A DNA stretch of 64,000 nt from Streptomyces sp. NBC_00536 (GTDB lineage: Bacteria; Actinomycetota; Actinomycetes; Streptomycetales; Streptomycetaceae). A program made the translations under genes and the position numbers. The notes under the pieces were generated by a model. That model was not told where the DNA came from. It did no database searches and saw nothing but the letters and a program-made list of their open reading frames with translations. Each line of letters starts with the position of its first letter. Position 1 is the first letter of the stretch. Below are positions 12,844 to 16,074 of the stretch, in pieces. The stretch is taken from positions 5,828,001 through 5,892,000 of the forward strand of contig NZ_CP107819.1 in assembly GCF_036346295.1 (NCBI RefSeq). Direction: 5' to 3'.

Positions 12844-15800
12844 ATGGTGTGCAATGAACGGGTGCCCGCGCTCGACGAAGATCTCAAGAAGACCCTCGGC
12901 CCCGCCACCGCCAAGGTGCTGGCCGAGCAGCTCGGCCTGCACACGGCCCTGGACCTGCTGCACCACTACCCGCGCCGGTACGCCGAGCGCGGCGAGCTGA
13001 CCTCGCTGGCGGAGCTGGCCGACCAGATCGACGAACACGTCACCGTCGTCGCCCAGGTCGCCGACGCCCGCGTGCTCACCTTCAACGGCGGGCGCGGCAA
13101 ACGGCTGGAGGTGACCATCACCGACGGCAGCGGCCGGCTCCAGCTCGTCTTCTTCGGCGCGGGCGTCCACAAACCGCACAAGGACCTGCTCCCCGGCAGC
13201 CGCGCGATGTTCGCGGGCAAGGTCTCGATGTTCAACCGCAAGCTCCAGCTCGCCCACCCCGCCTACGAACCCCTCGGCGTGGACGCCACCACCGCCGAGG
13301 CGGTCGACGCCTTCGCCCAGCAGCTGATCCCGATCTACCCGGCCTGCAAACAGCTGGAGTCCTGGAAGATCGCCAAGGCCGTCGACGCGGTCCTGCCCAG
13401 CGCCCAGGAAGCCGTGGACCCGCTGCCGCCCGCGCTGCGCGACGGCCGCGGGATGCTGCCGCTCACCGAAGCCCTGCTCAAGATCCACCGGCCGCGCACC
13501 AAGGCCGACGTCGAGGCCGCGCGCCAGCGGCTCAAGTGGGACGAGGCCTTCGTCCTCCAGGTCGCCCTGGCCCGCCGCCGGCACGCGGACACCCTGCTCC
13601 CCGCCGTCCCCCGCCGCCCCGCCCCCGGCGGCCTGCTGGACGCCTTCGACGCCAAGCTCCCCTTCACCCTCACCGACGGCCAGCTCACGGTCTCCCGCGA
13701 GATCTTCGACGACCTGGCCACCGACCACCCCATGCACCGCCTCCTCCAGGGCGAGGTCGGCTCGGGCAAGGCGCAGCCGCTCGACGCCCAGGTGCTGACT
13801 CCGTCGGGCTTCCGCCTCATGGGCGAGATGGAGGCGGGCGCCGAAGTGGTCGTACCGACGGGCGAGATCGCTGTGATCGAGAGCGTCCATCCACAAGGCG
13901 TCCGAGACGTGTGGCGGCTCGCACTCTCCGACGGGACCACCGTCGAGTGTGACGACGAGCATCTGTGGATCGTGGCCACGAGCTGCGCGTGGGCCCGTGG
14001 CGAGCAGCCCAAGGTCCTCACGACCAGCGAGATCCGCAACGATCTGCTGAAGGCCAACGGGTCGTCGAAGTGGTACCTCCCGGAGGCCGCTCCCGCGGAC
14101 CTGGAGGGTGGCGGCGACCGGCCGCTCGACCCGTACCTGCTGGGCGTGCTCATCGGCGACGGTTCGTTCCGCCACAACCTGCGGCTCTCCACGACGGACG
14201 ACGAGATCCGCGCGGCTGTCGGCGCCGCTGTGGCACCCGGATGTGGACTGGTCGAGGTACCGGGCGCCCTGTGCGACTTCACGATCGCCATGAGCGGGCC
14301 GAAGGGCGGCACACGGCGCAATCCCGTGATCCAGGCACTGCGCGTGCTGGGCCTGTGGGGACTGACCTCGCACGACAAGTTCGTCCCGGAGCCCTACCTG
14401 AACGCCCCGGTCAAGGAGCGCCTGGCCGTCCTGCAGGGGCTCATGGACACGGACGGCACGATCGGGAAGACGGGACTCGGGATCACGTTCTGCTCGGCAT
14501 CGGAGCGGTTGGCCGAGGACGTCGCGTGGCTCGTCCGGTCCTTGGGAGGACGTGCCCGGATCCGGCCGAAGAAGAGCGCGTTCGAGGTCGCTTTGACCCT
14601 GCCCGAGGAGTTCGGGCCCTTCCGGCTGTCACGGAAGGCGAACCGGATGGCGCCCCGGACCAAGTACAAGAACTTCCGGCGCGGCATCCGCGCCATCGAA
14701 TACGTCGGCCGCAAGCCGGTCCAGTGCATCAGCGTCAAGCACCCGAGCCGGGCGTACGTCACCGACAACTTCACCGTGACGCACAATACGATGGTCGCGC
14801 TGCGGGCGATGCTCGCCGTCGTCGACTGCGGGGGGCAGGCGGCGATGCTCGCGCCCACCGAGGTGCTCGCCCAGCAGCACCACCGGTCCATCACCGAAAT
14901 GATGGGCGACCTCGCCGAGGGCGGGCAGCTCGGCGGGTCCGATCTGGGGACCAAGGTGGTGCTGCTCACCGGTTCCATGGGGACGGCCGCGCGGCGGCGC
15001 GCGCTCCTGGACCTGATCACCGGCGAGGCCGGGATCGTCATCGGCACCCACGCCCTGATCGAGGACAAGGTCAAGTTCCACGACCTCGGGCTCGTCGTGG
15101 TCGACGAACAGCACCGGTTCGGCGTGGAACAGCGCGACGCCCTGCGCTCCAAGGGCAAGCAGCCCCCGCACCTGCTCGTGATGACCGCGACCCCGATCCC
15201 GCGCACCGTAGCGATGACCGTCTTCGGCGACCTGGAGACCTCCGTCCTGGACCAGCTCCCGGCCGGGCGTTCCCCGATCGCCACCCACGTGGTGCCCGCC
15301 AAGGACAAGCCGCACTTCCTCACCCGGGCCTGGGAGCGGGTCCGCGAGGAGGTGGAGAAGGGGCACCAGGCCTATGTGGTGTGCCCGCGCATCGGCGACG
15401 GCGAGGACGACCCGAAGGCCGCCAAGAAGAAGGCCGCCGCGGAGGAGGACGGGGACAAGAGGCCGCCGCTGGCCGTGCTGGAGATCGCCGAGCAGCTGGC
15501 CAAGGGGCCGCTGGCCGGGGTGTCCGTCGAGGTGCTGCACGGCCGGATGGACCCGGCCGACAAGGACGACGTGATGCGGCGCTTCGCGGCGGGCGAGGTG
15601 AAGGTGCTGGTCGCCACGACCGTCATCGAGGTGGGGGTGAACGTACCGAACTCCACCGTCATGGTGATCATGGACGCGGACCGGTTCGGGGTGTCCCAGC
15701 TCCACCAGCTGCGCGGCCGCGTCGGCCGCGGCTCCGCCCCCGGGCTGTGCCTGCTGGTCAGCGAGATGCACGAGGCCAGTCCCGCCCGGGCCCGGCTGGC

Positions 15801-16074
15801 CGCCGTCGCCGCCACCCTCGACGGCTTCGAACTGTCCCGGATCGACCTCGAACAGCGCCGCGAGGGCGATGTCCTCGGCCAGGCGCAGTCGGGCGTGCGC
15901 TCCTCGCTGCGGATGCTGTCCGTCATCGAGGACGAGGAGGTCATCGCGCAGGCCCGCGAGGAGGCCACCCGGGTCGTCGCCGCCGACCCCGAGCTGACCG
16001 CTCTGCCCGGCCTGCTGACCGCACTCGACGCCCTGCTCGACACCGAGCGCGAGCAGTACCTGGAGAAGGGCTGA
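12844..16074 (+). CDS. recG: ATP-dependent DNA helicase RecG, interrupted in frame by an intein
   Basis: RecG remodels stalled forks and branches Holliday junctions. The host protein has the N-terminal wedge/OB region (HHYPRRYAERGELTSL, DGSGRLQLVFFGAG), Walker A split as GEVGSGK|T, the Walker B-like VVVDEQHRFG, ATPIPRTVAMTVFG, and the VIEVGVNVPNSTVMVI and HQLRGRVGRG motifs. The 1076-aa precursor minus the 339-aa intein (residues 310-648) leaves 737 aa, a normal RecG length, with helicase motifs continuous across the junction. ATG start at 12844; a GTG at 12862 gives the more usual N-terminus VPALDEDLKK and could be the true start. Followed by rsmD and coaD. Splicing must occur for a working ATP site. 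Confidence 0.96.
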   Translation: MVCNERVPALDEDLKKTLGPATAKVLAEQLGLHTALDLLHHYPRRYAERGELTSLAELADQIDEHVTVVAQVADARVLTFNGGRGKRLEVTITDGSGRLQLVFFGAGVHKPHKDLLPGSRAMFAGKVSMFNRKLQLAHPAYEPLGVDATTAEAVDAFAQQLIPIYPACKQLESWKIAKAVDAVLPSAQEAVDPLPPALRDGRGMLPLTEALLKIHRPRTKADVEAARQRLKWDEAFVLQVALARRRHADTLLPAVPRRPAPGGLLDAFDAKLPFTLTDGQLTVSREIFDDLATDHPMHRLLQGEVGSGKAQPLDAQVLTPSGFRLMGEMEAGAEVVVPTGEIAVIESVHPQGVRDVWRLALSDGTTVECDDEHLWIVATSCAWARGEQPKVLTTSEIRNDLLKANGSSKWYLPEAAPADLEGGGDRPLDPYLLGVLIGDGSFRHNLRLSTTDDEIRAAVGAAVAPGCGLVEVPGALCDFTIAMSGPKGGTRRNPVIQALRVLGLWGLTSHDKFVPEPYLNAPVKERLAVLQGLMDTDGTIGKTGLGITFCSASERLAEDVAWLVRSLGGRARIRPKKSAFEVALTLPEEFGPFRLSRKANRMAPRTKYKNFRRGIRAIEYVGRKPVQCISVKHPSRAYVTDNFTVTHNTMVALRAMLAVVDCGGQAAMLAPTEVLAQQHHRSITEMMGDLAEGGQLGGSDLGTKVVLLTGSMGTAARRRALLDLITGEAGIVIGTHALIEDKVKFHDLGLVVVDEQHRFGVEQRDALRSKGKQPPHLLVMTATPIPRTVAMTVFGDLETSVLDQLPAGRSPIATHVVPAKDKPHFLTRAWERVREEVEKGHQAYVVCPRIGDGEDDPKAAKKKAAAEEDGDKRPPLAVLEIAEQLAKGPLAGVSVEVLHGRMDPADKDDVMRRFAAGEVKVLVATTVIEVGVNVPNSTVMVIMDADRFGVSQLHQLRGRVGRGSAPGLCLLVSEMHEASPARARLAAVAATLDGFELSRIDLEQRREGDVLGQAQSGVRSSLRMLSVIEDEEVIAQAREEATRVVAADPELTALPGLLTALDALLDTEREQYLEKG
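13771..14787 (+). mobile_element. Class 3-type intein with LAGLIDADG homing endonuclease inside RecG
   Basis: The 339-residue in-frame insert follows Lys309 of the RecG P-loop and ends with His647-Asn648 before Thr649. The first residue is Ala310, not Cys/Ser. Block B is TTVECDDEHLWIV with His373 and Trp375; block F is PVQCISVKHPSRAYV with Cys628; block G is NFTVTHN with Thr646. Trp, Cys and Thr match the WCT triplet (B:12, F:4, G:5) of class 3 inteins, which use the block F Cys as nucleophile. LAGLIDADG motifs are LLGVLIGDG (432-440) and LQGLMDTDG (530-538), both with the acidic residue. TTG Leu codons, rare in this genome, appear several times. Confidence 0.95.

Follow-up and report, generated by a model that had tools for sequence, protein, structure and literature searches.

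The recG gene of Streptomyces sp. NBC_00536 lies on the forward strand of the 64,000-nucleotide stretch analyzed here (the window; contig NZ_CP107819.1, positions 5,828,001 to 5,892,000) as a single open reading frame (ORF) of 1,076 codons (12844-16074) that is unbroken throughout and keeps its RecG motifs. Between the Lys and the Thr of the Walker A motif GSGK/T sits an in-frame insert whose removal leaves a protein of 737 amino acids (aa) (1,076 minus 339; Table 1). The junction codons are AAG (Lys) at 13768-13770, GCG (Ala) from 13771 and CAC-AAT up to 14787 within the insert, and ACG (Thr) at 14788-14790. A first-pass annotation of the sequence had placed an intein in the Walker A loop of RecG, with coordinates that proved exact, and our codon reading agrees with its description of a 339-codon block with His-Asn before Thr in an otherwise 737-aa RecG. 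It overlooked that the block begins with Ala instead of Cys or Ser, and hence its probable membership of class 3.

Table 1. Features of the intein-containing recG gene in the window
Feature	Position	Strand	Comment
RecG N-extein	12844..13770	+	309 codons; last residues GEVGSGK of Walker A
Class 3 intein (predicted)	13771..14787	+	339 aa, Ala1 to Asn339
Splicing block B, DDEHLW (D61xxH64, W66 of WCT)	13951..13968	+	Compared with MsmDnaBi1 D62/H65/W67
LAGLIDADG motif 1, LLGVLIGDG, catalytic-type Asp130	14137..14163	+	
LAGLIDADG motif 2, LQGLMDTDG, catalytic-type Asp228	14431..14457	+	Within PF14528 match
Splicing block F, VQCISV, Cys319 (predicted initiating nucleophile)	14719..14736	+	
Splicing block G, T337-H338-N339	14779..14787	+	
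RecG C-extein	14788..16074	+	428 codons plus stop; first residue is Walker A Thr (+1)

The NCBIfam RecG equivalog model NF008167 matched the protein with 1,096.7 bits, above its cutoff of 995; of the two stretches matched, the better begins at residue 648. Two RecG structures in the PDB, 1gm5 (query residues 11-311 and 649-1046) and 9wm0 (19-310 and 649-1044), aligned on both sides of the insert and left it unaligned. A search of the genome with RecG returned seven matches, of which only this gene was full-length; the other six were partial, at 30 to 41% identity. Among 154 loci with RecG motifs, a set that includes some duplicates and many loci fetched for holding the intein, GK runs directly into T in 32, and an insert occupies the same point in 122. 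The block is therefore not a normal RecG segment, and comparison with intein-free relatives shows a seamless site.

The insert itself matched PF14528 (33.8 bits against a cutoff of 22.5) and, in part, models of intein-containing DnaB, RecA, and GyrA proteins. Its predicted fold includes the HINT fold and is matched by those of PI-SceI and of DnaB inteins of class 3. The top PDB sequence match was 6riz, a gp41-1 intein engineered with the class 3 triplet; gp41-1 was also matched as 6qaz (E = 3.4e-4). An AlphaFold model of the full 1,076-aa precursor, built on a 20-row alignment of the window sequence with 19 of 120 database proteins, had a mean predicted local distance difference test score (pLDDT) of 50 and a predicted template modeling score (pTM) of 0.30 and was not used. 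Together with the site, the profile and fold matches support the identification of the block as an intein in the RecG P-loop, as judged from sequence comparison and prediction.

Splicing signature and proposed mechanism

Residue conservation was read from 167 loci, 13 of which had no RecG pattern (12 from non-RecG places, plus L164, a RecG without intein that escaped the pattern and was not counted). Removal of 5 repeats from the other 154 left 149 loci, and the 132 distinct ones comprise 100 with the intein and 32 without. Position 1 is Ala, which offers no nucleophile, in the window intein and in all 100 distinct RecG inteins. Just as invariant (100 of 100) are the WCT triplet (W66, C319, and T337), D61xxH64 of block B, and H338-N339 followed by a +1 Thr; this excludes the possibility that the splice residues are unconserved. 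Block B has the DxxH form seen in MsmDnaBi1, a class 3 DnaB intein, without the usual Thr of TxxH. A protein-database search gave 2,671 matches among 7,993 scored, and the 120 listed all have the Ala start and H64, W66, C319, T337, H338, and N339. According to PMC7664689 and PMC5050341, a WCT triplet in blocks B, F, and G sets class 3 apart from class 2. The whole signature (Ala1, D61xxH64, W66, C319, T337-H338-N339, and +1 Thr) thus supports a class 3 intein with an internal Cys nucleophile, in which splicing should start from Cys319.

The reading that we favor, with a probability of about 0.94, is that a full-length class 3 (WCT) LAGLIDADG intein splices out of RecG, homes, and then decays as an endonuclease. 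By analogy with class 3 biochemistry, Cys319 would attack the Lys-Ala1 bond after translation, the Walker A Thr (+1) would then take over the N-extein, and cyclization of Asn339 would free a RecG of 737 aa in which GSGKT is intact. The endonuclease would copy the element into intein-free recG alleles and would later decay in many lineages, with selection keeping splicing. In this scheme, the +1 Thr may double as a splicing residue and, in mature RecG, as the Walker A hydroxyl. We think it fair to infer that RecG activity depends on splicing and that the precursor cannot use ATP, because the Walker A Thr lies 339 residues away until then.

Distribution and horizontal movement

The distribution of the element is sporadic. 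Of 199 genomes sampled evenly across the genus, 196 have a RecG match and 59 an intein match at an E value of 1e-20 or better. At least 32 of the 199 have the intein in RecG, and all 32 of these loci, when read, had RecG motifs and intact splice residues; among the other 164 genomes in which RecG was matched, the 29 whose loci were read all lacked the intein. Given these same-site inteins and the database matches, the idea that the element is unique to this strain was dropped. In a scan of named genomes, 139 stretches were confirmed, and the 80 of these that were retained were titled Streptomyces (79) or Actinacidiphila (one). Most of the source-named proteins among the 120 listed are labeled only "helicase-related protein," so RecG can be missed in annotation.

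Wider samples placed the element beyond the genus. A family sample (150 genomes, threshold of 1e-50) gave 10 matches: six in the genus, one RecG intein outside it (G474, the same stretch as Actinacidiphila locus L047), and three outside it with other hosts. In a phylum sample of 149 genomes, 67 passed an E value of 1e-90 with the RecG query, and the rows read beyond the genus included G225 (locus L147), a member of another class with a 344-aa RecG intein at the same site and with the same signature; a few rows besides those read also have long open frames, so the sample holds at least this one beyond the genus. A congener of L147 at 94% extein identity, G211 (L148), is intein-free.

Several comparisons indicate that the intein moves horizontally. 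The nearest intein to that of the window, in locus L008 (Streptomyces sp. 549), is 83.2% identical, with exteins at 79.2%; of the 278 pairs at 77 to 81% extein identity, no other has an intein identity as high. The L147 intein exceeds its extein in identity against 84 of 84 full inteins. Among 49 plasmid records, the only ones whose match spans 80% or more of the query with its intein were three Rhodococcus plasmids, whose RecG is 43% identical to the query overall and has an intein at the same place. In the one that was read (L167), the intein is 52.4% and the extein 40.4% identical to the window, the site is the same, and the next gene encodes a tyrosine recombinase. This gene lies at L167 1603-5280 on Rhodococcus rhodochrous plasmid NZ_CP120357.1, with a class 3-type intein of 353 aa; two R. 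pyridinivorans plasmids have a gene matching it.

For a sample picked partly because it holds the intein and partly because it is close to the window, presence and absence on the extein tree required 22 or more changes, compared with a mean of 29.0 and a minimum of 24 in 200 shuffles. In quick trees, 10 of 24 well-supported intein splits were contradicted by supported extein splits and 9 were shared, and the nearest neighbors of intein and extein agreed for 29 of 99.

The searches also met inteins in other hosts. Non-RecG intein matches of the genus sample were at 32 to 44% identity, and the three such loci that were read have hosts that, named by eye, are TraG-like, AAA-like, and PhoH-like. 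The Streptomyces PhoH-like protein has a class 3-type intein (L136 2250-3329), and ORFs of similar size with 36 to 40% matches recur in the genus sample. Streptomyces locus L135 (3071-4141 and 10210-12828, both minus strand) has an intein with a Cys-Leu-Ala start, perhaps class 1, in a TraG/VirD4-like protein and two further inteins in a neighboring AAA-type ATPase (both hosts named by eye). Class 3-type inteins were found at VEGN/T in proteins resembling CHAP-type peptidoglycan hydrolases by eye, a non-ATPase host (L143 1501-2547 and L144 1501-2547, minus strand). A 37% intein-like match occurs in Enterobacter, Citrobacter, and Klebsiella plasmids and an uncultured-bacterium record (H45 to H49), with the host given as TraD in one annotation.

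Endonuclease decay and alternative readings

Both LAGLIDADG motifs of the window intein look intact, each with an acidic residue (Asp130 and Asp228) that we take to be of catalytic type. Across the 100 distinct inteins, 67 are full-length with both Asp residues, 18 are full-length with one or both changed, 12 are shortened with a changed Asp, and 3 are shortened without a change. Thus 33 of 100 have a changed Asp or an endonuclease deletion (any Asp change was counted, including Asp to Glu, the sole change in L042), while no splice residue is altered in any of the 100. The genus sample, which is less biased (n = 32), contains 15 intact full-length inteins, 3 full-length and changed, 11 shortened and changed, and 3 shortened and unchanged. 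The main deletions fall within residues 132 to 204 and leave inteins of 247 to 316 aa; some inteins additionally lose short pieces near residues 71-75, 232-233, and 283-297. Over 2,298 pairs with a proportion of synonymous differences (pS) in the extein of up to 0.35, the median ratio of nonsynonymous to synonymous substitution rates (dN/dS) was 0.085 for the splicing part, 0.154 for the endonuclease, and 0.126 for the extein, indicating purifying selection on the splicing part. GC content at third codon positions was lower in the intein than in the extein in 94 of 100.

Several results weigh against the favored reading. Curated intein splicing-domain models gave no match even at an E value of 10, only endonuclease models and whole intein-containing proteins being matched. 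Intein and extein distances are correlated (Mantel r = 0.63), which, with the 9 of 24 shared splits, suggests that part of the intein history is vertical. No co-conversion tract was seen at the insertion site when window and L008 recG were compared for DNA identity in 20-codon steps. In the 25 pairs of shortened, dead elements, dN/dS is 0.325 for the splicing part and 0.468 for the endonuclease, so the splicing parts may also be relaxing. Finally, the synonymous rate (dS) of the intein is ~2-fold that of the extein (0.90 and 0.95 versus 0.40), which is not fully explained.

It has been reported that splicing of a mycobacterial P-loop DnaB intein is under oxidative control, and by analogy the RecG intein might be retained because it acts as a switch: under oxidative stress Cys319, perhaps in a pair with Cys60, would become oxidized, which would stall splicing and hold RecG off replication forks, and plasmid-borne recG (e.g., of Rhodococcus) would ferry the element between actinobacterial classes. 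We regard this as unlikely. Of 100 distinct RecG inteins, 97 have Cys60, but as it also occurs in the non-RecG intein L145 and in gp41-1, it may be structural; it was considered as an alternative to Cys48 of MsmDnaBi1, which is important for the redox response there and has no counterpart by eye, the corresponding RecG intein residue 47 being Val in 98 of 100.

Strictly vertical descent from an ancient RecG intein, with loss from most lineages and no recent mobility, would account for the Mantel correlation, the many decayed endonucleases, and the missing co-conversion tract. We nevertheless consider it quite improbable, since inteins are more similar than exteins both across classes and to the plasmid copy, 10 of the 24 supported intein splits conflict with supported extein splits, the nearest intein (83%) sits in a RecG at only 79% (1 of 278 pairs), and L147 is occupied where L148, at 94% extein identity, is free. 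A dead or merely cleaving intein that leaves RecG inactive or the gene decaying has a precedent in the Arthrobacter FB24 class 3 intein, reported to be a pseudogene in PMC3196547, but it is a very remote prospect here: the splice residues never vary, whereas 33 of 100 inteins have altered endonuclease residues or segments, the frame is open with RecG motifs kept, and the splicing part is under apparent purifying selection. Least credible is a canonical class 1 or class 2 intein with its first nucleophile at position 1 or +1, which the HINT fold held in common with class 1 inteins and the match to gp41-1, itself class 1, might suggest, since Ala instead of Cys or Ser at position 1 in 100 of 100 speaks against class 1 and the invariant W66-C319-T337 triplet against class 2, which lacks both a position-1 nucleophile and the triplet.

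One core repair gene in one genus thus offers a site-specific class 3 intein family at each stage: empty sites, full elements whose endonuclease motifs are intact, full elements in which a catalytic-type Asp has changed, and internal deletions graded from 316 to 247 aa. The RecG intein family is good material for studying the homing cycle and whether inteins with dead endonucleases are kept for a reason.

Comparison with known inteins

The host name TdS we take to stand for thymidylate synthase. A TdS intein of Streptomyces is described in PMC5050341, and in PMC1193525 inteins come up only in a figure legend. RecG appears among the intein-containing DNA helicases of Eubacteria in Table 1 of the review PMC5874633, where its row specifies neither the site nor the class, nor any organism more narrowly than Eubacteria. 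The first-pass annotation knew of no described streptomycete RecG intein, and this stood to the extent that no description of a streptomycete class 3 RecG intein family was found in the open-license literature searched (an earlier report elsewhere is possible), but RecG itself was already on record as an intein host.

The class 3 DnaB inteins MsmDnaBi1 and MchDnaB1 reside in a different host protein and have Ser at +1, in contrast to the Thr of the RecG intein. MsmDnaBi1 is a mini-intein, whereas the RecG intein is full-length with an endonuclease. The P-loop Ser of MsmDnaBi1 has been described in a dual splicing and Walker A role like that proposed for the RecG +1 Thr. PI-SceI, a class 1 intein of the yeast VMA host, is matched in predicted fold at only 15 to 16% identity.

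Class 3-type inteins of phage ATPases (from IMG/VR contigs and named phages) mostly have an AQPLD-like start, as does the RecG intein. They end in THN in 34 of 34 translated loci, with Gly-Lys no more than 3 residues upstream in 30 of 34, which is in line with the phage origin of class 3 inteins that has been proposed, as cited in PMC5050341. Their hosts differ, however, and identity to the RecG intein is at most 43% among the 80 contigs kept and 38% for the top-ranked named phage. A careful tree was built from 17 RecG inteins, 34 of the 80 viral loci, and 7 further bacterial inteins; 12 of its rows, including one RecG intein, have an unusual letter make-up. In it the RecG inteins form a group of their own on one side of a branch (support, 100/91), and all but the plasmid intein fall on a further branch (98/92). 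The RecG intein is a new example, in a little-noted host, of a known kind of mobile element, and its predicted class 3 mechanism is ordinary.
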